A stretch of 22,480 bases of DNA from a virus. The DNA is taken from the IMG/VR virus record IMGVR_UViG_3300025168_000738, positions 1 to 22,480 of that record; one strand, given 5' to 3'. Shown piece by piece: positions 9,442-17,786 of the stretch. The notes beneath the pieces were generated by a model. It searched no databases and was not told the DNA's origin. It saw only the letters and a list, made by a program, of their open reading frames with translations. A program made the position numbers and the translations under genes. Within the stretch, counting starts at the first letter, position 1. Each line of letters opens with the position of its first letter.

Positions 9442-9538
9442 CTGCCTTTCGTTGTTATTGTTCTTAATAGTACTACCCTCGTTCTATCTGTCAAGCTACC
9501 CACCATAACTTGTTGATTCTATTACAACGAAAGACAGG
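9442..9538. repeat. Inverted repeat around the terS promoter
   Basis: CTGCCTTTCGTTGT at 9442-9455 and ACAACGAAAGACAG at 9525-9538 are complementary at 13 of 14 positions, separated by 69 bases that contain the candidate terS promoter. It could form a long-range RNA stem or mark a protein binding pair. Confidence 0.5.
9467..9494 (-). promoter_or_regulatory. Candidate promoter for the head operon
   Basis: Read on the minus strand, TTGACA (9494-9489) is followed after 16 bases by TACTAT (9472-9467). The first hexamer is a perfect sigma-70 -35 box, the second matches the -10 consensus at four of six places. It is 33 bases upstream of the terS start codon and would drive the packaging genes with host RNA polymerase. 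Predicted only. Confidence 0.5.
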
Positions 9539-9541
9539 CTT

Positions 9542-9565
9542 TTTCTTTTCTCTGTAGAAAAGAAA
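9542..9565. repeat. Perfect 9-bp hairpin in control region
   Basis: TTTCTTTTC (9542-9550), loop TCTGTA, GAAAAGAAA (9557-9565). It lies in the leader upstream of terS. On either strand the flanking bases are A/T rich, so a weak terminator or attenuator is possible, but there is no clean T-run. Confidence 0.55.
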
Positions 9566-9574
9566 CAAAAGACA

Positions 9575-9592
9575 CGTACTTTAAAAAGTACG
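9575..9592. repeat. Perfect 7-bp hairpin in control region
   Basis: CGTACTT (9575-9581), loop TAAA, AAGTACG (9586-9592). Sited 10 bases from the 9542-9565 hairpin. Read on the minus strand it is followed by TGTCTTTTGTTTC, an interrupted T-tract, so it might act as an attenuator ahead of the head operon. Confidence 0.5.
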
Positions 9593-9633
9593 GCAAACTA
9601 AACCTAACCTTATTATACTGCTTCGTAACGGAG

Positions 9634-9651
9634 GCAGACCACAAAGGCATC
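9634..9651. repeat. 18-bp direct repeat, copy 1
   Basis: GCAGACCACAAAGGCATC, identical to 9819-9836. Copy 1 is inside a possible stem AACGG (about 9628-9632) with CCGTT (about 9655-9659). A degenerate third copy, ACCAAAAGGCATC, is at 10791-10803. Confidence 0.8.
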
Positions 9652-9818
9652 CGACCGTTTCTCAAATAAGAATATTATCTACATCATCGTTATATATATA
9701 TATATAATCTTCTGATTTTTATGTTCCTCATGTCAAATTGAGCTGTCAAATAAGATGAACGAATATTTTTCGAACAAGGCAAAAGTCTCGAAATATATTC
9801 ACGAATTGATGGCACACC

Positions 9819-9836
9819 GCAGACCACAAAGGCATC
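9819..9836. repeat. 18-bp direct repeat, copy 2
   Basis: GCAGACCACAAAGGCATC, identical to 9634-9651, here within the inverted-repeat core and just after the 9761-9800 stem-loop. Confidence 0.8.
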
Positions 9837-9894
9837 GCCGCACCACAATTAGGTTCATCTAATTTGACAGCAAAATTTGACAAGAGGTTTATTC

Positions 9895-9923
9895 TTATCA
9901 GAATTTTTATATATATTTATAAT
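9895..9923 (+). promoter_or_regulatory. Candidate early promoter
   Basis: TTATCA (9895-9900), a 17-base spacer and a perfect TATAAT (9918-9923), 38 bases before the start codon of the first early gene. The mirrored TTGACA boxes lie just upstream and may be bound by a regulator or act as an alternative -35. Confidence 0.55.
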
Positions 9924-9960
9924 TATTCGTTAATATAAACTAAATAAAAGGTAAATTAAA

Positions 9961-10656
9961 ATGAGTAAAATAATAGAAGATGTAATATTAAACCATGATT
10001 TAATGACTGAAGATAATAGAATGTTAGAAAATACAAACCAAATACCTAGAACTCACGATAGAACTGAAGAAGGTTTTGATGCAGTATCTGCTGATATTAA
10101 TGAAGTCGAAATGATGGATGAAGAAAGAAATGTTTTTGGAAATAGTAAGAAAGAAATAAAACGTAACCTGGATATCTATTCAGACTGCATTGTGCTTAGA
10201 CATTCGTTAGTTAATCCTAATCCAGAAAGCACATTTAACCCTAACTATCCTGCTCAAACAGAAGTTAATAACCTCTACACTCAAAAGTTTAAAACAGAAC
10301 AACTCTTTGATGCTGGAGCAAAAAGACTTGAGACTGCTCAAACTAACTACAACTCAGGTGATTTTATTTCAAGTTTATCTAACAGTCAAATGACTTATAG
10401 AAACAACCTTGTAATACTTGAACTGTCTATTGAGAGCTACAAGCAAGCTAATAAAAAGAACCCATCATTAGAATTAACGTTCTTTAAATTAGAAGATGAC
10501 CTTAAACTTTTCAAAGCTAAAATCTCTGCCTCTATAGCTTCTGCACAAGCTGCAAAACAAGGTAAAACTCAAGCTAAGAAGATGTCTAAGCAAGAGATTA
10601 AAAGAGAGCAAGATAGAATGACAATGTTGACAAGTAGAAAAGACATTAGAATCTAA
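9961..10656 (+). CDS. First early gene, hypothetical, 231 residues
   Basis: A 231-residue protein, acidic at the start (MSKIIEDVILNHDLMTEDNR) and basic at the end (AAKQGKTQAKKMSKQEIKRE, then TSRKDIRI). The middle is predicted all-helical (KFKTEQLFDAGAKRLETAQT; SIESYKQANKKNPSLELTFF), so a coiled-coil or helical bundle is likely. I do not recognise the family. It is the first gene after the control region and the start has AAAGG eight bases upstream. It ends before a structured gap, so it may be made at a different level from the rest of the early genes. Position suggests an early host-takeover or regulatory protein; sequence does not show which. Confidence 0.75.
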   Translation: MSKIIEDVILNHDLMTEDNRMLENTNQIPRTHDRTEEGFDAVSADINEVEMMDEERNVFGNSKKEIKRNLDIYSDCIVLRHSLVNPNPESTFNPNYPAQTEVNNLYTQKFKTEQLFDAGAKRLETAQTNYNSGDFISSLSNSQMTYRNNLVILELSIESYKQANKKNPSLELTFFKLEDDLKLFKAKISASIASAQAAKQGKTQAKKMSKQEIKREQDRMTMLTSRKDIRI

Positions 10657-10667
10657 CTTAACATATA

Positions 10668-10704
10668 GAGTTCGCTAGTCTCTACGACAAAAAAACTAGC
10701 ACTC
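10668..10704 (+). repeat. Hairpin after the first early gene
   Basis: GAGT, a 2-base bulge, GCTAGT (10674-10679), a 15-base loop, ACTAGC (10695-10700) and ACTC. Sited 12 bases after the stop codon. There is no T-run after it, so it is more likely an RNA-stabilising or regulatory stem than an intrinsic terminator. Confidence 0.5.
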
Positions 10705-10754
10705 ATTTCATAATTCAAATCTAATATATACAACACACAAACTAATCACAAACC

Positions 10755-10778
10755 ATTCTTTTGATGAAGCAAAAGAAT
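10755..10778 (+). repeat. Perfect 9-bp hairpin upstream of the 59-residue gene
   Basis: ATTCTTTTG (10755-10763), loop ATGAAG, CAAAAGAAT (10770-10778). Thirteen bases later comes ACCAAAAGGCATC (10791-10803), a degenerate copy of the 18-bp repeat in the control region, so the hairpin-then-motif order is the same as around 9761-9836. The 10657-10896 gap otherwise shows only a pair of GGTATAGCA repeats (10824 and 10847). Confidence 0.55.
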
Positions 10779-10896
10779 CAAAACTTCTAAACCAAAAGGC
10801 ATCAAACCTGTATCTTAGTACGTGGTATAGCAGGAATTGTTTACATGGTATAGCAACAGTTATGATTAATTTTCAAACAACAATCGGAGATAATAT

Positions 10897-11076
10897 ATGA
10901 GTGATCCATTAAATCAGCATCCAAAATTTTACACCATAACATTTGATGACAACAAACAAGAATATATGTGGGCTAATGATGAGGCACATGTTGTTGCCAA
11001 ATGTCTTGAAGAATATCCAAGTGCAGAAGTAACAGAAATATTCTTAAACAATAGAGAACCAGTGATATACAAATAA
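10897..11076 (+). CDS. Small hypothetical protein, 59 residues
   Basis: ATG at 10897 opens 59 codons ending in TAA, preceded by GGAG seven bases upstream. The protein begins MSDPLNQHPKFYTITFDDNK and ends NNREPVIYK; the pattern of alternating hydrophobic residues (FYTITF, VTEIFLNN) with a central helix (EAHVVAKCLEEY) gives a beta-helix-beta outline seen in many small phage proteins. No family recognised. It stands alone between two structured non-coding stretches, so its expression may be tied to them. Confidence 0.7.
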   Translation: MSDPLNQHPKFYTITFDDNKQEYMWANDEAHVVAKCLEEYPSAEVTEIFLNNREPVIYK

Positions 11077-11079
11077 TAA

Positions 11080-11765
11080 TTTGTAATCTTAGAACAGATA
11101 GTATACACTTATTAGAACAGTTTCATTAGGATAGGGTACAACTGCAACCAGGTTTATTCCTGCTTACTTGTACCACAAGAGAGTTAGCTTTCTCTCTGTA
11201 GTCAAACACTATGTCATCTTGACGTAAAGTTAAAACAGCTCTATTGAGTCTGGGCTACAAACAAAAAGCATGAATTACTGAGCGTGGGTTTGAATCCCAT
11301 TAAGTATAGGTACAAACATGCGCTGTGCTGAGGTAGGTTTATATCCTACAATATGTACAGCCCATGAGTAGCATACTGTTATTTGTCGGTGTCTTGAGCT
11401 TGTAGTCTAAGTATCGCTCGCTTCAAAAACCTTATGCTTTTTGTACCGCCCTTATAATTCTGGGGTGTACGCATGATTGCCAGTATGGATGATTCTTTAT
11501 CAAAACTTAGATACGATAAAGATAGCACAGCAATCAAGCTACCAGAGTAAGGTGTTATACATAGGTACTGGTTATTAAAACCCTGCATGGGTAATCCTGC
11601 AAAGAGAGAAGGATAGTCTCTTGAGGTTAGAGGGAGTAGACCAGCTAAGTTTATACCCGTCAAAGCCTATGACTTTTGTGTGTGCATAGCCTAGCGTGTG
11701 GCTGTATAGATAGTCTTGTTGTACAAGTACAGCAGTCCAGGACTTGCGTGTACACACATTTTATT
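11080..11765 (+). ncRNA. Candidate large structured non-coding RNA (GOLLD/ROOL-class size)
   Basis: About 680 bases with no plausible gene on the plus strand, while the rest of the early operon is tightly packed. It is full of stems: GGTACAA/TTGTACC (11135-11141 with 11168-11174); AGAGAG/CTCTCT (11178-11183 with 11192-11197); TGGGCT/AGCCCA (11251-11256 with 11359-11364) enclosing GCATG/CATGC (11268-11272 with 11317-11321) and GCTGTGC/GTACAGC (11322-11328 with 11355-11361); CAAAAA/TTTTTG (11424-11429 with 11438-11443); AAGAGA/TCTCTT (11602-11607 with 11617-11622); and near the end TGTGTGT/ACACACA (11677-11683 with 11752-11758) enclosing GCTGTA/TACAGC and CTTGT/ACAAG. Some stems are alternatives to each other. 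Large ornate RNAs such as GOLLD and ROOL are known from phages at this size; membership is inferred, not shown. TTAGAACAG is repeated at 11089 and 11112, just before the first stem. Confidence 0.55.
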
Positions 11766-11777
11766 AAGGAGGTATAG

Positions 11778-11840
11778 ATGGACCAGTTATTATTATTCAT
11801 AGCTCTTATGCTGTTGTATATCATGGCAGTCAGAGCATAA
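11778..11840 (+). CDS. 20-residue membrane peptide
   Basis: A perfect AAGGAGG ribosome binding site (11766-11772) precedes ATG at 11778, which encodes MDQLLLFIALMLLYIMAVRA and TAA. The whole peptide is one hydrophobic helix with a charge at each end, so it should insert in the membrane. It is the first coding sequence after the candidate RNA and lies 18 bases before the DUF2958 gene. Such a strong binding site before so short a frame argues for real translation. Role unknown; small phage membrane peptides can act on host membrane proteins. Confidence 0.6.
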   Translation: MDQLLLFIALMLLYIMAVRA

Positions 11841-11858
11841 CAACAAGAGGTGTAGTCA

Positions 11859-12188
11859 ATGAAGTTAATCACAAAAGAAATAGAGCGTAAGCTCAAGGCT
11901 AATCAAGCCATGATGGATGAGGCAGATGAGAAAGGTATGGACTTCTCTATTGCTGATCGTCAACCAGTCGTTAAGTTATTCAATCCAGTTGGTGCAGGTA
12001 CTTGGTTCTTATTCAGTATGAATGAGGCAGGTCATGCGTTTGGGTGGGCTAAGATATCGGATGGTGAGTATGGTTGGGTAGACGTTAACAGTTTACAAGA
12101 GTTGGATGTCGGGTTTTATCTTGGTATAGAAAGAGACCTGCATTACACACCATGTACATTCAAAGAAATCGCAGAGATGTGGGGGTAA
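11859..12188 (+). CDS. DUF2958 family protein
   Basis: A 109-residue protein beginning MKLITKEIERKLKANQAMMD, with VVKLFNPVGAGTWFLFSMNE at about residues 37-56, FGWAKISDGEYGW, and LGIERDLHYTPCTFKEIAEM at the end. This order (K-L-x-T-x-E-I, V-K-L-F-N-P-x-G-x-x-T-W, E-R-D-x-H) is the DUF2958 signature. The family is common on plasmids and phages, mostly without known function. Start has AGAGGTG upstream. It heads a long chain of small early genes whose ends overlap or nearly overlap. Well recognised family, unknown role. Confidence 0.85.
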   Translation: MKLITKEIERKLKANQAMMDEADEKGMDFSIADRQPVVKLFNPVGAGTWFLFSMNEAGHAFGWAKISDGEYGWVDVNSLQELDVGFYLGIERDLHYTPCTFKEIAEMWG

Positions 12189-12189
12189 C

Positions 12190-12501
12190 ATGAGCAAAGT
12201 AATAAGTGATAAGCAAGACAAGCTAGTTAGTATCAATGGTGAACCAGTTTGGTATAGGTACAGAGTAACAAGAGTAAGGAAAGAATATACTGATTGGGAA
12301 ATAGAAAGCACAGTTAAGTTAGACCTTAATGATCTAAAGTCTCATGCTAATTGGCGTGAGGTATCAGGTGGTAACAAAGAGTTTCCATATGGGTTACGTG
12401 ATTTACCTTTTGGTTCTGTTGATGTAGGACATGGGCCAGCCCTTGTGGATTATAGTGATGAAGATTGGGAGTATGAATTACAGGAGGATAACAATGAGTA
12501 A
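12190..12501 (+). CDS. Hypothetical early protein, 103 residues
   Basis: A 103-residue protein beginning MSKVISDKQDKLVSINGEPV, with a beta-rich first half (VWYRYRVTRVRKEYTDWEIE) and an acidic end (VDYSDEDWEYELQEDNNE). No family recognised. It begins one base after the DUF2958 stop, with a GTGGGGG stretch upstream, and its end overlaps the next start by eight bases. Confidence 0.7.
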   Translation: MSKVISDKQDKLVSINGEPVWYRYRVTRVRKEYTDWEIESTVKLDLNDLKSHANWREVSGGNKEFPYGLRDLPFGSVDVGHGPALVDYSDEDWEYELQEDNNE

Positions 12502-12796
12502 CGGTACACCAGAAGATGATTTAAATACATACATGGATAGGCAAGACCAAGCAGAAGCAGAGCATAACGCTGAGTTAGAAGTAGCAACAGACACAGCGCT
12601 ATGTGTATGCAATGTGTTAGAAGGACTTAGATACTTTAATGTAGATGATCAGTCGACTGTTGATTTAGATTTTTCACAAGGCACAGTCAACGTAACGATT
12701 GATTTAACTGAGGTAGAACTAGAAGTATTCGCTGAGTACTTAGGCACAACTGCTAGTAAGTATGTGTGTGAGAAGGTAGCAAAGGTGATTGAGTAA
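12494..12796 (+). CDS. Hypothetical acidic early protein, 100 residues
   Basis: I place the start at the ATG at 12494 because AGGAGG (12482-12487) is seven bases upstream; a frame opening at 12431 lies within the previous gene. The protein begins MSNGTPEDDLNTYMDRQDQA, is acidic throughout and ends in a helix (VFAEYLGTTASKYVCEKVAK). The middle alternates polar and hydrophobic residues (VDLDFSQGTVNVTIDLTEVE), suggesting a beta-sheet. No family recognised. Stop codon shares one base with the next start. Confidence 0.7.
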   Translation: MSNGTPEDDLNTYMDRQDQAEAEHNAELEVATDTALCVCNVLEGLRYFNVDDQSTVDLDFSQGTVNVTIDLTEVELEVFAEYLGTTASKYVCEKVAKVIE

Positions 12797-12987
12797 TGGA
12801 AGCATGGCAACGTAGATACAAGGACCGTAAAGAAGAAGCCTATTATAAATATCGTGATAGGTTAATGAAAACAATTAAGCCTGGTTACATTAGGCCAACA
12901 ACATTTACTGATGTTATACACGCAACAGCTATGCGAATGGCTGAGAAATATATGACATCACTAAGAACAGGAGAACGCAATGGGTGA
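12796..12987 (+). CDS. Small basic early protein, 63 residues
   Basis: A 63-residue protein, basic and helical, beginning MEAWQRRYKDRKEEAYYKYR and ending EKYMTSLRTGERNG. It starts on the last A of the previous TAA (TAATG) and has AAGGTG upstream. No family recognised. Charge suggests nucleic-acid contact, but this is weak. Confidence 0.65.
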   Translation: MEAWQRRYKDRKEEAYYKYRDRLMKTIKPGYIRPTTFTDVIHATAMRMAEKYMTSLRTGERNG

Positions 12988-13219
12988 ATTATGTTTAACA
13001 ATGGAAGAACAAGTCTGGTTGGTACAGCTTATCAGTACTAACACGCAGACTGCTGCAAAGTTTATGGAAAATTTAAATGAAAGTAATGTAACGGAGTACG
13101 ACCAAGAGTACATCAGACTGATGACTGAGTGCTATGAATCCTCAAAAAAATTAGGAGGATTGATAGTTAAAATTAAACACAACATAGAGGTAGACTACGA
13201 TGACAGAAGTAATAGCTAA
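12980..13219 (+). CDS. Hypothetical early protein, 79 residues
   Basis: A 79-residue, mostly helical protein (MGELCLTMEEQVWLVQLIST; ECYESSKKLGGLIVKIKHNI). AGGAG lies six bases upstream of the ATG, and the start overlaps the previous gene by eight bases. The end overlaps the next gene by 20 bases. No family recognised. Confidence 0.65.
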   Translation: MGELCLTMEEQVWLVQLISTNTQTAAKFMENLNESNVTEYDQEYIRLMTECYESSKKLGGLIVKIKHNIEVDYDDRSNS

Positions 13220-13418
13220 ACCGTTTGAAGATAGAGAAGAATACTGGGAAGGCAGACACATGGAGGTTGATCGCACAATCAGAAGCATGATAAAACTAAA
13301 TTGTTTAGGCACAAGTTTATGCAAGATGCTTAGTGATGATAGTTCTTTGCAAGATGATTGGGTCAATGCAGTAACCAATAAGATTCTTATGCACGAGTGG
13401 GAACAAAGTGTTAAGTAA
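13200..13418 (+). CDS. Hypothetical early protein, 72 residues
   Basis: A 72-residue protein beginning MTEVIAKPFEDREEYWEGRH, with a helical C-terminal half (DDWVNAVTNKILMHEWEQSV). It overlaps the previous gene by 20 bases and has AGAGGTAG upstream of the start. No family recognised. It is followed after 7 bases by the 28-residue membrane peptide gene. Confidence 0.65.
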   Translation: MTEVIAKPFEDREEYWEGRHMEVDRTIRSMIKLNCLGTSLCKMLSDDSSLQDDWVNAVTNKILMHEWEQSVK

Positions 13419-13425
13419 GGGTGTG

Positions 13426-13512
13426 ATGTTTGTGAAGTGGGTGATGCTACCACTCTTAGTGGCTGGCATTGTAATTTTAATAATAGAATTATTAGCGAGG
13501 GTATTACTATGA
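13426..13512 (+). CDS. 28-residue membrane peptide
   Basis: ATG at 13426 opens 28 codons ending in TGA at 13510-13512, which overlaps the start of the next gene (ATGA). The peptide begins MFVKWVMLPLLVAGIVILII and ends ELLARVLL: a Lys near the start, then a long hydrophobic helix that should span the membrane. AAGGG is just upstream. The ATGA overlap and the exact fill of the gap between neighbours support translation. Function unknown. Confidence 0.6.
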   Translation: MFVKWVMLPLLVAGIVILIIELLARVLL

Positions 13513-13895
13513 AGATAGATGCAAATGATGTAGATAGATTGATTGATGAGATAGATATACTTGAGAAAGATGTAAGGAGATATAAACATATTTGGAAGAA
13601 AGCACAGTATAACTATGAGTATATGTTTGATCGACATGCAGATAAAGAAATCATTATTAAACAAAATGAAATGTTAATGAACTTTATGACTGACTATGCT
13701 CTAGCACAAAAAGCATTGCATAAACATAACCATAATCATTGTGTTAAGAAAGTAGTTGATTCAATACCAGATGAAGAGTTGCTTATTGTTTCAGCAGCAT
13801 TTGAAGCAAGGCTTAAAGACAGATGTAAAGATAAGCCTGGACAATTTGAATCTATAATGAAAGCGTTAAATCTTGAAGAATCCATTACTGGATAG
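13509..13895 (+). CDS. Helical hypothetical early protein, 128 residues
   Basis: I place the start at the ATG at 13509 (GAGGG nine bases upstream, ATGA overlap with the membrane peptide gene); a longer frame from 13437 has no binding site and would overlap that peptide. The protein begins MKIDANDVDRLIDEIDILEK, is charged and helical, with a likely coiled coil over its first 60 residues, and a His-rich stretch ALHKHNHNHCVKKV near residue 70. The C-terminal part (DEELLIVSAAFEARLKDRCK) is another amphipathic helix. The His/Cys cluster could bind a metal. No family recognised. Confidence 0.65.
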   Translation: MKIDANDVDRLIDEIDILEKDVRRYKHIWKKAQYNYEYMFDRHADKEIIIKQNEMLMNFMTDYALAQKALHKHNHNHCVKKVVDSIPDEELLIVSAAFEARLKDRCKDKPGQFESIMKALNLEESITG

Positions 13896-13903
13896 GAGGT
13901 AGT

Positions 13904-14140
13904 ATGAAAGGTACAGGACCAAAGCGTAAGGTTAACAAGTACTTGCAGGTAAAAAAATATTTGCAGAGATACAAGAAGATAACAACATGGGATGCAATCA
14001 CAAAGTTTAGAGCAACCAGACTGTCAGATATTATATATAGAATGAGAGGTGAAGGATACTCAATAGCAAGTGAGTGGCATACCAACAAAGATGGTATACG
14101 TTATACCATCTATTATTACTGGGGAGATAAAGATGAGTAA
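13904..14140 (+). CDS. Winged helix-turn-helix protein (HTH_39-like)
   Basis: A 78-residue protein. After a basic start (MKGTGPKRKVNKYLQVKKYL) comes QRYKKITTWDAITKFRATRL, SDIIYRMRGEGYSIASEWHT, and a beta wing IRYTIYYYWGDKDE. The pattern I-T-x-x-x-A-I ... x-R-L-(S)-x-x-I-(Y)-x-L/M-(R)-x-x-G-Y-x-I is that of HTH_39, a small DNA-binding domain frequent in phages. It probably acts as a DNA-binding regulator or replication accessory; the target is not visible. GGAGGT lies just upstream of the start, and the end overlaps the next gene by eight bases. Confidence 0.75.
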   Translation: MKGTGPKRKVNKYLQVKKYLQRYKKITTWDAITKFRATRLSDIIYRMRGEGYSIASEWHTNKDGIRYTIYYYWGDKDE

Positions 14141-14321
14141 AGAAATCAAAAATAGATATGACTACTTAGAAAATAATATTTCTGTAGGCGAGTTCATGGA
14201 GTACTGTAAAGACAATGGACTTACATGTGCATACCACCAAAATTTGTATGATTCAGTAGTAGATGGTTTGCTTGAAATGTCTTTAGATAAAACAAATTGG
14301 TACTCGGATTATGACGTATAA
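14133..14321 (+). CDS. Small hypothetical early protein, 62 residues
   Basis: I place the start at the ATG at 14133 (GGGGAG upstream, overlap with the previous stop). The 62-residue acidic protein begins MSKEIKNRYDYLENNISVGE and continues FMEYCKDNGLTCAYHQNLYD. It has a helix-turn outline but no recognised motif. It overlaps the following gene by 11 bases. Confidence 0.6.
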   Translation: MSKEIKNRYDYLENNISVGEFMEYCKDNGLTCAYHQNLYDSVVDGLLEMSLDKTNWYSDYDV

Positions 14322-14823
14322 AGAATTGGTGTTCACTCTTATAGCCAAGAGAAAAAAATATAAGGTAGATACTATGACAGTATCGCAGATGATTGGTGTA
14401 GCTGATAGCTCAGTTGGTAGCTGGGAGCGTATGCAAAAATGTCCTAATGGTATGAACTTACTAGCTTGGTGCAATGCACTAGAGTTAGAGTTAGACCTAA
14501 AGGAATTAGAATCACAATGTCCAGTAGACTTTGAAGCATCACCTGATGTAATAGCCTGGACTCAACAACAGGATATAGACTATGACAAAGAAAGAGATAA
14601 GTTCATCGACTACTACACAGCGCAAGGTAGGACAGCAAGGAACTGGCAAGCCATGTTTAAACTTTGGGTTCGAAGGTCAGTCGAGTTTAGAGCAGAGTCA
14701 GATCGAACACGTGCAACATATGATAAGACTTCGCCCACCTTTGTTCGAGACAGACGTGAACGAATCCTTGATATGTCAAATGTATCGAGTAAATTTCTTG
14801 AAAGAAAAGGTAAAGACAAGTGA
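14311..14823 (+). CDS. DnaT-like phage replication protein with N-terminal HTH
   Basis: A 170-residue protein with two parts. Residues about 1-55 hold a Cro/XRE-type helix-turn-helix (TMTVSQMIGVADSSVGSWER near 21-40). After an acidic linker comes DIDYDKERDKFIDYYTAQGR, TARNWQAMFKLWVRRSVEFR (about 88-127). The F-x-x-Y-(Y/W) ... NWQAxFxxWVRR pattern is that of the DNA-binding domain of DnaT and phage replication-initiation proteins, which bind single-stranded DNA and help load the host helicase. A phage origin-binding or primosome role is therefore likely. HTH plus DnaT-like domain is a usual design for origin recognition. The rest of the module agrees, since no phage polymerase is seen nearby. 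Confidence 0.65.
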   Translation: MTYKELVFTLIAKRKKYKVDTMTVSQMIGVADSSVGSWERMQKCPNGMNLLAWCNALELELDLKELESQCPVDFEASPDVIAWTQQQDIDYDKERDKFIDYYTAQGRTARNWQAMFKLWVRRSVEFRAESDRTRATYDKTSPTFVRDRRERILDMSNVSSKFLERKGKDK

Positions 14824-15166
14824 ATTTACTGTAGCTGTAGCCAAGTGTGAGGAGTTACTTACACCATGTGCAGTAGAAGATGTGCAAGTAATGTTAGAAA
14901 CCATATGCTCTACCTTCAGTTGCTCTGCACCTAATGAACTAGGTCTTAAAACATATTGGGAGTTACTCAAGAAATATCCTGCTGGATTATTTCCTTATGT
15001 AACGTTACACATATGTGCTACTTACAAATATCCTAGACTGCCAATGCCAATAGATTTTGTATCATATCTTGATGACGAATATCTCAAGGCTTTTAACTTT
15101 TTAGAAAGCCTTAGAAATGCTGGAGCTTGGGCGTTGCAACTAGAACAAACACAAGGTAAAATATAG
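14780..15166 (+). CDS. Hypothetical protein downstream of DnaT-like gene (possible helicase loader)
   Basis: The start is uncertain. The ATG at 14780 gives 128 residues (MYRVNFLKEKVKTSEFTVAV) and overlaps the DnaT-like gene by 44 bases; ATGs at 14720 and 14582 are in frame but lie deeper inside it, and none has a clear ribosome binding site. The C-terminal part holds YWELLKKYPAGLFPYVTLHI, CATYKYPRLPMPIDFVSYLD and a terminal helix. Position directly after a DnaT-like protein, and the (Y)P-x-x-L-x-x-Y/V and L-P-x-P-x-x-F segments, are reminiscent of helicase loaders such as lambda P, but this is a weak likeness. Four Cys in residues 20-50 are unusual for this genome. Confidence 0.6.
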   Translation: MYRVNFLKEKVKTSEFTVAVAKCEELLTPCAVEDVQVMLETICSTFSCSAPNELGLKTYWELLKKYPAGLFPYVTLHICATYKYPRLPMPIDFVSYLDDEYLKAFNFLESLRNAGAWALQLEQTQGKI

Positions 15167-15169
15167 AAC

Positions 15170-15745
15170 ATGAGTGTAGTCAAATATATAGATATAGATA
15201 GGCACAAAGGGATTGGTGGCTCAGATTCACATGCCCTAATGGGTACAAATGTTACACCCATACATGAGCTATGGGAACTTAAAACATTACGTAAGCCTGG
15301 AGTAGATTTATCTAATGTGTTGCCAGTACAGATAGGTACATTGACTGAGGACTTTAATCTTAGTTGGTTTGTTAAACAAACTGGTATCAAAGCTGAACCT
15401 TATCCTGAAGAATATATCAAAGAAGATTTTAGAATGGCACACTTTGATGGCTGGTGTCCAGAAGAACAAGCAATCATAGAGTGTAAGCACACTAATCATT
15501 ACAATAAGTTAGAGCATGTAAGGGCTAGATACTATGCGCAGATCCAACACTATCTGATGATGGCAAGACTTGATGTCTGTTATCTATCAGTACTGTTTGG
15601 TAATGCACGATGGGAATACTGTGCTATCCCATCACATCAAGACTATCAAGAGATCCTAGCTTATCGTCAAGAAAAGTTTTGGGATATGGTAGTAAACAAT
15701 AATGAACCAACCGCAGATAATACTGCATGGAGACTGTATGAGTAA
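15170..15745 (+). CDS. YqaJ / lambda-exonuclease-like recombination nuclease
   Basis: A 191-residue protein that digests one strand of double-stranded DNA from an end, in the lambda Exo/YqaJ family. Visible motifs: IGGSD at residues 15-19, GTLTED with Glu60, HFDGW with Asp93, and IIECKHTNHY with Glu104 and Lys106, matching the D-x(n)-E-x-K core of the PD-(D/E)xK nucleases. A later QIQHYLMMARLDVCYLSVL segment (Gln at about 125) fits the conserved Q-x-Q motif. Length is near lambda Exo (226). The gene is followed at once by a probable annealing protein and SSB, so the three form a recombination set comparable with lambda exo-bet. Strong assignment. Confidence 0.88.
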   Translation: MSVVKYIDIDRHKGIGGSDSHALMGTNVTPIHELWELKTLRKPGVDLSNVLPVQIGTLTEDFNLSWFVKQTGIKAEPYPEEYIKEDFRMAHFDGWCPEEQAIIECKHTNHYNKLEHVRARYYAQIQHYLMMARLDVCYLSVLFGNARWEYCAIPSHQDYQEILAYRQEKFWDMVVNNNEPTADNTAWRLYE

Positions 15746-16355
15746 GATGAATATACCTGACGAAGCCGTCAAGATATTTAAAGATTTAAAGATTAATGGT
15801 AGTGAAGCTACATGGGATTGTCATGGCACACCTGTTGTACTGCATAAGTATATAGAAATCATAGGAGCTAAACTTAATGTAAGTATAGATAGCCTAGATA
15901 TTGTAGAAGCTAGTGCTAAAGATGGGATAGTCAGTATGAAATGTGTAGCCTCAATTAAAGATAGACAAGTTATATCTTATGGTGAGTGTAGTCCTAAGAA
16001 TAATAAGAACGCCTATCCGTATGCAATGGCAGAGAAGCGAGCAGTCGATAGATGTATCTTGAAGCTAGCTAACTTACATGGCTTTGTCTACTCAGAGAAT
16101 GAGATAGATGATAAAGCACCATCAAGTAAACCAAAGACAGCAGAGAAAAAAGTAATAGGTAATGAGCCTACTGTCCGTATGTTTATAGATGAGATGAACC
16201 ATGAACAAACGTATACTGAATTCAATACAACAGTTAAAAAATTCTCTGGTGTTATGAAGATAGCTGCTAAATCAAATCCAACTTTGTATCAAGAAGCTAA
16301 AGACAAGTATGAGTTAATCAAATCAAATCACACAAGGAGTTTAAATGTACAATAA
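15738..16355 (+). CDS. Probable single-strand annealing protein (Rad52/Erf-like role)
   Basis: I place the start at the ATG at 15738 (overlapping the nuclease stop), giving 205 residues. The first two thirds include ATWDCHGTPVVLHKYIEIIG (24-43), ASIKDRQVISYGECSPKNNK (71-90) and YPYAMAEKRAVDRCILKLAN (93-112). The pattern A-x-x-(K/R)-R-A-x-x-R followed by a helix is typical of Rad52/Erf-type annealing proteins, and genes with this GECSPKN-YPYAMAEKR pattern occur in marine phages beside YqaJ nucleases. The C-terminus is Lys-rich and probably disordered. Its role is to pair the single strands made by the nuclease. The recombination context supports it; the exact fold was not checked. Confidence 0.68.
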   Translation: MSKMNIPDEAVKIFKDLKINGSEATWDCHGTPVVLHKYIEIIGAKLNVSIDSLDIVEASAKDGIVSMKCVASIKDRQVISYGECSPKNNKNAYPYAMAEKRAVDRCILKLANLHGFVYSENEIDDKAPSSKPKTAEKKVIGNEPTVRMFIDEMNHEQTYTEFNTTVKKFSGVMKIAAKSNPTLYQEAKDKYELIKSNHTRSLNVQ

Positions 16356-16746
16356 GATAACACTAATAGGTAGACTAGGTAGAGATGCCGAAGCTATGGA
16401 ATCAAAAGCAGGTAACAAGTATTGGAAGTTTAGTATTGCAACCAATGAATGGATCTCATCTAAGGGTGAGGAAGAAACAACCTGGCATAACATCACATGC
16501 TTTAATGATTATGTAGGTAAGATGCTTGATGACAAAGGTAAAGCAGGTACTCTATTATACATAGAAGGTAAGCAACAATATAATACTTACACTAATAAAG
16601 ATGGACAAGAAGTTACCGCAGGTCAAGTAGTCATGGATAGGTTTGGATCTGTCTGTAAAATCATGGAACGCAGTCAACCTAAATCTACAGGTAACGTTAA
16701 GCCATCTGAAAGTGAAGATGAGTTTGATGATTCAATGCCATTCTAG
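16345..16746 (+). CDS. ssb: Single-stranded DNA-binding protein
   Basis: A 133-residue OB-fold SSB. It begins MYNKITLIGRLGRDAEAMES, the usual N-terminal strand (N-K-x-x-L-I-G-x-L-x-x-D/x-E), has KYWKFSIATNEW near residues 26-37, WHNITCFNDYVGKML near 46-60, and LLYIEGKQQYNTY near 69-81. The tail is acidic and ends DEFDDSMPF, which matches the C-terminal D-D-x-(I/M)-P-F tip used by bacterial SSB to recruit partner proteins. It coats single-stranded DNA in replication and recombination. It overlaps the annealing protein gene by 11 bases with AAGGAG upstream. Very secure. Confidence 0.95.
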   Translation: MYNKITLIGRLGRDAEAMESKAGNKYWKFSIATNEWISSKGEEETTWHNITCFNDYVGKMLDDKGKAGTLLYIEGKQQYNTYTNKDGQEVTAGQVVMDRFGSVCKIMERSQPKSTGNVKPSESEDEFDDSMPF

Positions 16747-16754
16747 GAGTATGT

Positions 16755-16991
16755 ATGAAAGTAAAAGCAAGACAAAGGGATGTGTATTATTTTATTAAAC
16801 ATTTTATTGCAGCGTATAAGGCATCACCTACGTATAAGGAAATATGTAGTGGGTGTCGCATTAAAAGTAAGAGCCATGCTTATGGTTTAGTAAAGCATTT
16901 GATTGAAGAAGGGTATCTTGAAAAAAACAAGGATGTAAATCTTAATCGTCAGATCAAGTTAACCAAGAAAAGATATAGGATAATGATGTGA
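16755..16991 (+). CDS. LexA-like DNA-binding domain protein (no protease domain)
   Basis: A 78-residue winged helix-turn-helix protein: MKVKARQRDVYYFIKHFIAA, YKASPTYKEICSGCRIKSKS, HAYGLVKHLIEEGYLEKNKD. This follows the N-terminal domain of LexA (T-x-x-Q-x-x-(I/V)-(L/F)-x-x-(I)-x-x-(F), (S/P)-(P)-(T/S)-x-x-E-I, (G)-(I)-x-S-x-S, L-x-x-L-x-x-x-G-(Y/F)-(I/L)). The autocleavage domain of LexA is missing, and the protein ends in a basic tail. It may therefore be a phage regulator that either copies LexA operator binding or binds the symmetric sites in the control region; both are inference. It is the last early gene, ahead of the terminator. AGGAG is upstream of the start. Confidence 0.72.
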   Translation: MKVKARQRDVYYFIKHFIAAYKASPTYKEICSGCRIKSKSHAYGLVKHLIEEGYLEKNKDVNLNRQIKLTKKRYRIMM

Positions 16992-17045
16992 TGTTGGGTA
17001 TAGGACTCCAGTTTGTAATGTTGATTATGATATGTTAGCGTTACG

Positions 17046-17076
17046 TCAGTCTATAACATCCTAGTTTATAGACTGA
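17046..17076 (+). repeat. Perfect 11-bp hairpin after the early operon
   Basis: TCAGTCTATAA (17046-17056), loop CATCCTAGT, TTATAGACTGA (17066-17076): an exact 11-bp stem. No T-run follows on either strand, so it is not a typical terminator; it may protect transcripts or mark a site for a protein. The 16992-17094 stretch holds no other feature I can identify. Confidence 0.6.
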
Positions 17077-17094
17077 TCGTTATTATCCTACCTT

Positions 17095-17122
17095 AGAGGG
17101 TGTAACAGCCCTCTCTTTTTTT
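17095..17122 (+). terminator. Intrinsic terminator of the early operon
   Basis: AGAGGG (17095-17100), loop TGTAACAG, CCCTCT (17109-17114), then C and seven T (17116-17122). This is a clear rho-independent terminator reading in the plus direction. On the minus strand no T-run follows the stem, so it does not obviously stop transcripts of the converging tail/lysis genes. Confidence 0.88.
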
Positions 17123-17201
17123 ATTAAGCCACTACCACACCAGATGGTATAGCAAGCCCTGTGTATGGGCGACTGAGAGCCTCTTAATTATAGAGTTTGT
17201 T

Positions 17202-17348
17202 CTAATTCTTAGCGAATGGTAGCCATTCTTCTAATTGTTCGTCAGTCATGGTAGATTTTGGTATATCACAACCTTCAAAAGATTTAATTCCTTTGCCAAT
17301 CATTATAATAAATAAAAATATTGCCAACACTATTAGAAAATCTTTCAT
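17202..17348 (-). CDS. 48-residue membrane protein, hidden after holin-like gene
   Basis: ATG at 17348, directly after the stop of the holin-like gene, opens 48 codons ending in TAG. The protein begins MKDFLIVLAIFLFIIMIGKG, one membrane helix, then a short soluble tail (IKSFEGCDIPKSTMTDEQLE, EWLPFAKN) with one Cys. A GTGAGACGTTAG stretch with a GAG core is upstream. Its placement after holin-like and coiled-coil anchor genes suggests a lysis-related role (for example spanin-like), but no lipobox is present and no family is recognised. The gap 17123-17201 holds only a GCCC/GGGC stem at 17156-17170. Confidence 0.65.
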   Translation of the reverse strand: MKDFLIVLAIFLFIIMIGKGIKSFEGCDIPKSTMTDEQLEEWLPFAKN

Positions 17349-17786
17349 CTAACGTCTCACTAATGATCCACCAAAATATAATCCTATGATACTAGATACT
17401 ACGTGTGTGTCTAGTGGTGTGATTACTAATCCACCTAATGGTTTCCATAATGTCATGTCTGTACTGCTACTAAAGATCCAGAATCCTTTGGATATTGATT
17501 CGGTATAACCAACAAAAATATCTATGTTAGGATCTATGAATGGTGCAAGCTTAGGTAAGACTATAATTGCCATCACACACATGAGTGCAATGTATCTTCT
17601 TGTGTTCTTTGTGAATTGATCTGTTACGTTCCTGGCTTTATCAAACTGTTTAGATTGGAAGTCTGCTCTTGCCATCAACATCTTTTGTTGCTCGGCTTTG
17701 TCTTTGCTATTCTGTGCCATGATACCTAAGATACCACCCAGTACAGTTGATGCACCCATTGATATTAGTTCCATTGGTATACCCAT
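17349..17786 (-). CDS. Holin-like membrane protein
   Basis: A 145-residue protein with three likely membrane helices: residues about 7-24 (LISMGASTVLGGILGIMA), about 64-82 (YIALMCVMAIIVLPKLAPF), and about 115-142 (GLVITPLDTHVVSSIIGLYF). The MGASTVLGGILG start and the intervening basic helix KDKAEQQKMLMARADFQSKQ are found in a widespread group of marine phage proteins annotated as holins or as hypothetical. A holin would time host lysis by holing the inner membrane. No endolysin gene lies beside it in this window. Its end abuts the 48-residue gene, and it follows the coiled-coil anchor gene after one base. Moderately sure. Confidence 0.62.
   Translation of the reverse strand: MGIPMELISMGASTVLGGILGIMAQNSKDKAEQQKMLMARADFQSKQFDKARNVTDQFTKNTRRYIALMCVMAIIVLPKLAPFIDPNIDIFVGYTESISKGFWIFSSSTDMTLWKPLGGLVITPLDTHVVSSIIGLYFGGSLVRR

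Follow-up and report, generated by a model that had tools for sequence, protein, structure and literature searches.

The early operon and its leader region

The window, by which we mean the whole stretch of DNA that was analysed, is a 22,480-bp virus contig from IMG/VR whose TerL has 78% identity to its counterpart in Pelagibacter phage EXVC031P Hodr; the virus probably infects SAR11, an abundant ocean bacterium. The late genes point leftward from ~9.4 kb and the early genes rightward from ~10 kb, the latter including a RecE-like exonuclease and a single-strand binding protein. Immediately before the main early operon lies the leader that is the subject of this work (Table 1; related loci are cited by L numbers). 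The spacer of its promoter measures 15 bp, below the 16–18 nt of a consensus scan that did not list the site, and better hexamers are found in relatives, such as TTGACT...TATAAT in L115. We infer that the leader transcript starts within or just past the second TAGAACAG. Elsewhere in the window were noted a further non-coding stretch upstream (10657–10896, with repeated TGGTATAGCA motifs near 10824–10858), an inverted repeat AGATGGTATACGTTATACCATCT within overlapping early ORFs (14089–14111), and, where the early and late genes converge, a good intrinsic terminator AGAGGGTGTAACAGCCCTCT-CTTTTTTT (17095–17114).

The original prediction described this region as a non-coding stretch, and this description holds: the longest plus-strand ORF within 11100–11777 encodes 33 aa. 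A 94-aa ORF on the minus strand is a mosaic, non-conserved frame. When a protein-coding reading of the leader was tested, no conserved ORF was found, and relatives differ by whole modules.

The T-rich end ahead of a ribosome binding site, also predicted, corresponds to a U-run followed by AAGGAGG. In 25 of 26 leaders the last stem is followed by at least four T, compared to 8.6% of other leader windows, although the last module before the U-run may be A, B, C, D or J. The gap between stem and U-run is 0–2 nt, as in terminators, or 3 nt in a few leaders ending in socket A, and the last 8 nt before the U-run are mostly paired in predicted folds. A terminator scan of 9500–17400 listed no short-loop GC-rich hairpin at the leader end. 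The first gene past the leader encodes a peptide that is conserved with many silent and conservative changes. One or two such conserved tiny membrane peptides (MDQLLLFIALMLLYIMAVRA; MVLGVLLVAHYFVWVPAIVQAIH) stand at the head of the early operon, as in the window, L092 and L017, and recall type I toxins in size. In L115 and L119 the leader is present and the small membrane peptides are absent; therefore the leader is not simply there for the peptides and is tied to the operon instead.

Table 1. Features of the leader region in the window, with leader layouts and diverged core sites in related loci
Feature	Position	Strand	Remarks
Early promoter	11081–11120	+	Read from sequence; same layout in relatives
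Promoter −35, TTGTAA	11081–11086	+	Read from sequence
Operator-like direct repeats TAGAACAG	11090–11097, 11113–11120	+	Constant distance in relatives
Promoter −10, TATACA	11102–11107	+	Read from sequence
Predicted modular structured leader RNA	11121–11765	+	Non-coding; covariation; homologous leaders in at least 33 viral records
Hairpin h1	11135–11174	+	GGTACAA...TTGTACC, inner CAGG/CCTG; also in L083, inner stem TAGG/CCTA
Hairpin h2	11178–11197	+	AGAGAG-TTAGCTTT-CTCTCT; shared by most relatives, stem altered in some (e.g., GGTG/CACC in L019)
Module E	11197–11259	+	Closing TGTAGTC (11197–11203)/GGCTACA (11253–11259); closing pairs change in relatives
Invariant core hairpin	11274–11309	+	UACU/AGUA, GUGGG-UUUGAAU-CCCAU, then UAUAG; model R1, 62.7 bits
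Socket and cassette A	11309–11450	+	GUACAAA (11310–11316)/UUUGUAC (11440–11446), 123-nt insert, then CGCC
Module F	11450–11552	+	CCTTA (11450–11454)/TAAGG (11548–11552), TCTGG (11459–11463)/CCAGA (11542–11546); covariation
Module D	11560–11671	+	P1 CATAGG/CCTATG, P2 CTGGTT (11568–11573)/GACCAG (11639–11644); arm pairing in 11 copies
Module B	11677–11758	+	UGUGUGUGC...GCGUGUACACACA; terminal domain of window leader; copies in L096, L095/L093, L026, L113
U-run	11759–11762	+	Directly past last stem
Shine-Dalgarno AAGGAGG (11766–11772) and 20-aa membrane peptide MDQLLLFIALMLLYIMAVRA (11778–11840)	11766–11840	+	First gene after leader
Window leader			h1-h2-E-core-A-F-D-B
L083 leader			h1-core-A-F-D
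L086 leader			h2-core-A-C
L095 leader			h2-core-A-G-A-B-A-A
L100 leader			core-A; core plus one hairpin, ~110 nt
L142 leader			h2-core-C
L165 leader			core-D
Diverged second core	L092 4046, L096 2765, L099 76, L103 10924, L110 5882, L118 1817		Covariance model search

Covariation and cassette architecture

The region had also been called highly foldable. It does fold better than shuffled sequences, with z = −5.25 on the plus strand and −2.73 on the minus strand (20 shuffles), or −3.5 and −3.8, respectively, with another shuffle implementation and slightly different ends; the mean z of 26 related leaders is about −1.9 on either strand. Folding energy alone is thus moderate evidence of structure that proves neither structure nor strand, and with z-scores that are modest and similar on the two strands, minimum free energy was not used as main evidence. 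Covariation is decisive.

The core-plus-socket alignment (A1) comprises 24 distinct sequences with both cassette ends joined. In its core and socket helices 98.6% of cells are paired, compared to 34–54% when the partners are slid by 1–3 columns. A caveat is that complementarity itself helped to place most of the 3' arms, a bias in favour of the outer socket pairs; no such selection was made for the core helices. Both sides have changed in 59 cells, and none of 500 shuffles reached the observed pairing. In the core helices, nine sequences have exchanged G-C for A-U, and there are compatible G-U changes as well. At the ends of modules F and H all cells are paired, with nine double changes, and module F occurs in the covarying forms CCTCA/TGAGG, TCTAG/CTAGA and TCTTT/AAAGA. 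In module D, all six positions of P1 and of P2 pair in each of the 11 copies, which include several arm types and changed pairs, and four to five of five positions pair in P3; these arms were counted by anchors, because an automatic alignment sets two copies, L083 and L165, one base off close to P2. Taken alone, the module D arms, with only four distinct arm pairs, are not significant in the shuffle test (p = 0.09 and 0.16). Across core and socket, G-U combinations outnumber A-C combinations by 18 to 2, and therefore selection appears to see the plus-strand RNA. On these sequence comparisons the leader is almost certainly a structured, modular RNA. The original prediction was to fall if homologues lacked covariation or if a protein were translated across the region; covariation is strong, and no protein crosses it.

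At the centre of the leader stands a core hairpin with the consensus ATTACYRAG-YGURGG-UUUGAAU-CCYAC-UARGUAUAG, the loop of which fits the tRNA T-loop pattern UUNRA. Searched with a covariance model, 69 loci (0.8 Mb) gave 39 copies, each of them within a leader and none outside, the next match scoring 18 bits. The core lies from a few to ~190 nt from the promoter. Some leaders carry a second, diverged core, GCAAGG-TTTGATT-CCTGC, with an A cassette of its own, and this lies 3' of the first wherever one contig has both. Two further pairings proposed for the core were rejected: GAATTA/TAATTC around it is not kept in L019-type leaders (CATAAATC), and a switch in which core CCTAC pairs with GTAGG of module C occurs in a few phages and is lost in L086 and L120.

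Upstream of the core, h1, h2 and module E are optional and follow the second TAGAACAG; the module series comes after the core. A domain originally drawn at 11251–11364 found no support, as its GGCTACA pairs instead with the TGTAGTC of module E, a closing pairing that is kept in relatives (TGTAGTT/GACTACA in L092). The inner hairpin of module E is exchangeable, being ATGTCA/TGACGT in the window and other hairpins in relatives. One module of this series, socket A (UAUAG-arm ... arm-CGC), holds more than 12 unrelated inserts between arms that are complementary in all cases, for example ATACAGACTA/TAGTCTGTAT, GTACATAAATAG/CTGTTTATGTAC, GTACTATAAG/CTTATAGTAC and GTACAAAGG/CCTTTGTAC. One of these inserts (CTAGCGTGGCATAGCA...AAGGGT) occupies the first place in L083 and L089; in L095 and L093 it comes second.

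The remaining modules, F/H (CCTYA...TRAGG), G, I, C, D, B, J and K, vary in order and number between leaders. Module D also holds a hairpin ACCC/GGGT and P3, GGGAGTA/TATACCC, and is followed by TTTT at 11674–11677; it is likely pseudoknotted, as modules I and C probably are, and its pattern was found in no virus other than leader carriers. The second domain originally drawn, at 11677–11758, is real: it is module B, with copies in relatives, terminal in L096 as well and internal in the others. With modules swapped, duplicated or missing, leaders range from ~110 to ~750 nt, and the minimal ones (L100, L111, L165) retain the promoter, the core, one closing domain and the U-run.

Occurrence and exchange among relatives

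Relatives were gathered with the first large early ORF, the terminase, and the core, socket, promoter and module D patterns as queries, which yielded at least 33 viral records with a homologous leader at the corresponding site. No copy was found in the annotated phage collection searched, and the core pattern had no exact match in a genome set of 84,980 species, where the sole terminase relative found was 56% identical and lay in a MAG. All known leaders come from uncultured relatives of Pelagibacter phage Hodr. Among these, TAGAACAG-15-TAGAACAG sites are always followed by the core, provided that the contig continues and the site is not a chance match in coding DNA. Searches of open-licence papers found no description of such a leader; the RNA family appears to be new, its unusual part being the cassette architecture.

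Leaders differ even between close relatives. L083 is 89–93% identical to the window over several kb downstream of the leader, yet its leader has neither module E nor module B, and the A insert bears no relation to that of the window. L003 encodes a terminase protein identical to that of the window and has a promoter of another type, in common with L084 (L003 8861, minus strand), a variant which suggests from sequence that the promoter-leader region is swapped between close relatives.

A sister lineage (Hodr, L002 12037–12373; L055, L056, L071, L043, L061) is without such a leader. At its first early gene, the ribosome site is paired within a very long inverted repeat (CCTCCTTTGG...CCAAAGGAGG), which is kept with changed sequences and adjoins a minus-strand promoter, TTGACA-17-TATACT. 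The Hodr region folds with z = −5.15; a conserved block of this lineage, GTGTCAAGCYACC, was considered as an RNA domain and dropped, being that same minus-strand promoter.

Possible functions and known counterparts

The reading that we prefer, at a rough probability of 0.4 and by analogy with known phage elements, is that the leader acts in cis and controls entry into the early operon, with a terminator-like last stem and U-run, and upstream RNA for read-through. The leader would form the 5' end of the early transcript, and its last module, a closing stem and U-run ahead of the genes, would be a terminator-like gate, a role suggested because the U-run follows the last stem almost throughout though the last module differs. 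The core hairpin and adjacent modules could bind a factor of host or phage origin, or else host RNA polymerase during elongation, leading to a read-through decision as in put, and the cassettes would tune or protect the leader. Cassettes may be exchanged through recombination, for which the short conserved joints GGTATAGRTAC and GTAYCGCC would be the sites, perhaps with the aid of the phage's RecE-like exonuclease. Several points stand against this mechanism. First, the last stems enclose ~24 to >100 nt, unlike classical short-loop terminators, and the U-run may be only a free landing site for the ribosome. Second, no boxA-like or put-like element was established in the leader. Third, the spacing between promoter and core is variable. 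Fourth, antitermination offers no ready reason for a large cassette repertoire.

It is rather unlikely that the leader is instead an abundant non-coding RNA that exists on its own, set free through processing or by termination at the U-run, and that acts in trans, for instance as a decoy or scaffold directed at host functions, with an arms race driving cassette turnover. A U-run past the last stem would release such an RNA, the mosaic and fast turnover seen between L083 and the window fit, and modules C, D and I are compact and probably pseudoknotted. The leader, however, was never found apart from the early promoter, and its size varies about sevenfold, down to the minimal forms. Complementarity of the leader to the rest of the window is also no better than chance (longest match 13, random mean 12.3), and trans antisense action on phage mRNA was rejected.

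Equally doubtful is a long structured 5' UTR that would set how well the first early genes are translated or how stable their mRNA is, its modules shielding the transcript from nucleases and Rho and its U-run serving as a standby site. The position of AAGGAGG or TTGGAGA ~5–20 nt past the U-run agrees with this, and the inverted repeat at the first early gene of the Hodr sister lineage could lock the ribosome site. But in predicted folds of the leaders the ribosome site is neither consistently closed nor consistently open (mean unpaired 0.02–0.66), the leader persists without the small membrane genes in L115 and L119, and an invariant T-loop-like core exceeds what shielding needs. Selection of the structure as DNA, or its origin as a by-product of mobile hairpin elements (e.g., in packaging, replication or an attachment site), is very improbable: hairpin cassettes do occupy common joints and move between phages, but G-U pairs are tolerated where A-C pairs are not, the cassettes are absent elsewhere in the genomes, and no integrase (PF00589) was matched in 19 possibly incomplete records, on which ground the attachment-site reading was rejected.

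Beyond control of entry into the operon, we tentatively consider a combinatorial RNA possible, in which one phage lineage builds its early leader from a common stock of folded cassettes in conserved sockets around a T-loop-like core, so that the cassette set, and not one sequence, would carry the function, such as specificity against factors of the host or of rival phages. The leader would then be an unusual case of RNA evolution by cassette shuffling. Phages akin to a cultured SAR11 phage abound in the sea, yet very little is known of their RNA-level control; a covarying modular leader outside Rfam offers natural domain swaps with which to probe the steering of early transcription by a phage RNA.

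Among known RNAs, GOLLD and ROOL had been named as possible kin, and the leader resembles them as large complex phage RNAs without known function. A search for GOLLD, ROOL, OLE and other Rfam families gave no match in the window at E ≤ 5, only chance matches in the leader region alone (E ≥ 7.6), none in seven related loci at E ≤ 1, and only chance matches in Hodr at permissive thresholds. Of the predicted giant structured RNA, a large structured RNA of a new class therefore remains, and membership in the GOLLD/ROOL kind, given no Rfam match and no single fixed architecture, does not. A further likeness is that GOLLD has a conserved 3' part and a less conserved 5' part (PMC12286853). Those RNAs have a fixed giant fold, whereas the leader measures 110–750 nt, is always tied to one early promoter and has no tRNAs nearby (no tRNA or tmRNA was found in the window with ARAGORN and Rfam).

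The core recalls a tRNA T-arm in its 5-bp stem and 7-nt UUUGAAU loop; it differs in having U and not C at position 56, and in a 4-bp UACY/RGUA helix in place of the acceptor stem. P4 CI RNA and P1 c4 are phage leader RNAs that are processed and prematurely terminated; they lie at the start of an operon, a position that the leader has in common with them; they differ in that for the leader no Rfam match, integrase in the records or conserved antisense pairing was found. Lambda nut has an unpaired boxA, bound by NusB-S10, that the leader lacks: the boxA-like CGCCCTTA was rejected as such, its CCTTA part covarying with TAAGG in a helix, and it is lost where the helix partner is missing (L100, CGCTTTTT).

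The put RNA of HK022 spans ~70 nt, folds into two stem-loops of one sequence, and binds the zinc-binding domain of the beta-prime subunit of RNA polymerase to suppress termination. The leader differs in its fold, which is one T-loop-like core with one to seven further, variable modules. In HK022 this promoter-proximal RNA lets polymerase pass terminators before the early genes and needs no fixed distance, as putL adjoins its promoter and putR lies ~270 nt downstream (PMC9378689). We do not claim put membership for the leader, but it is likewise a structured RNA 3' of an early phage promoter and 5' of the early genes, and perhaps it works like put RNA.
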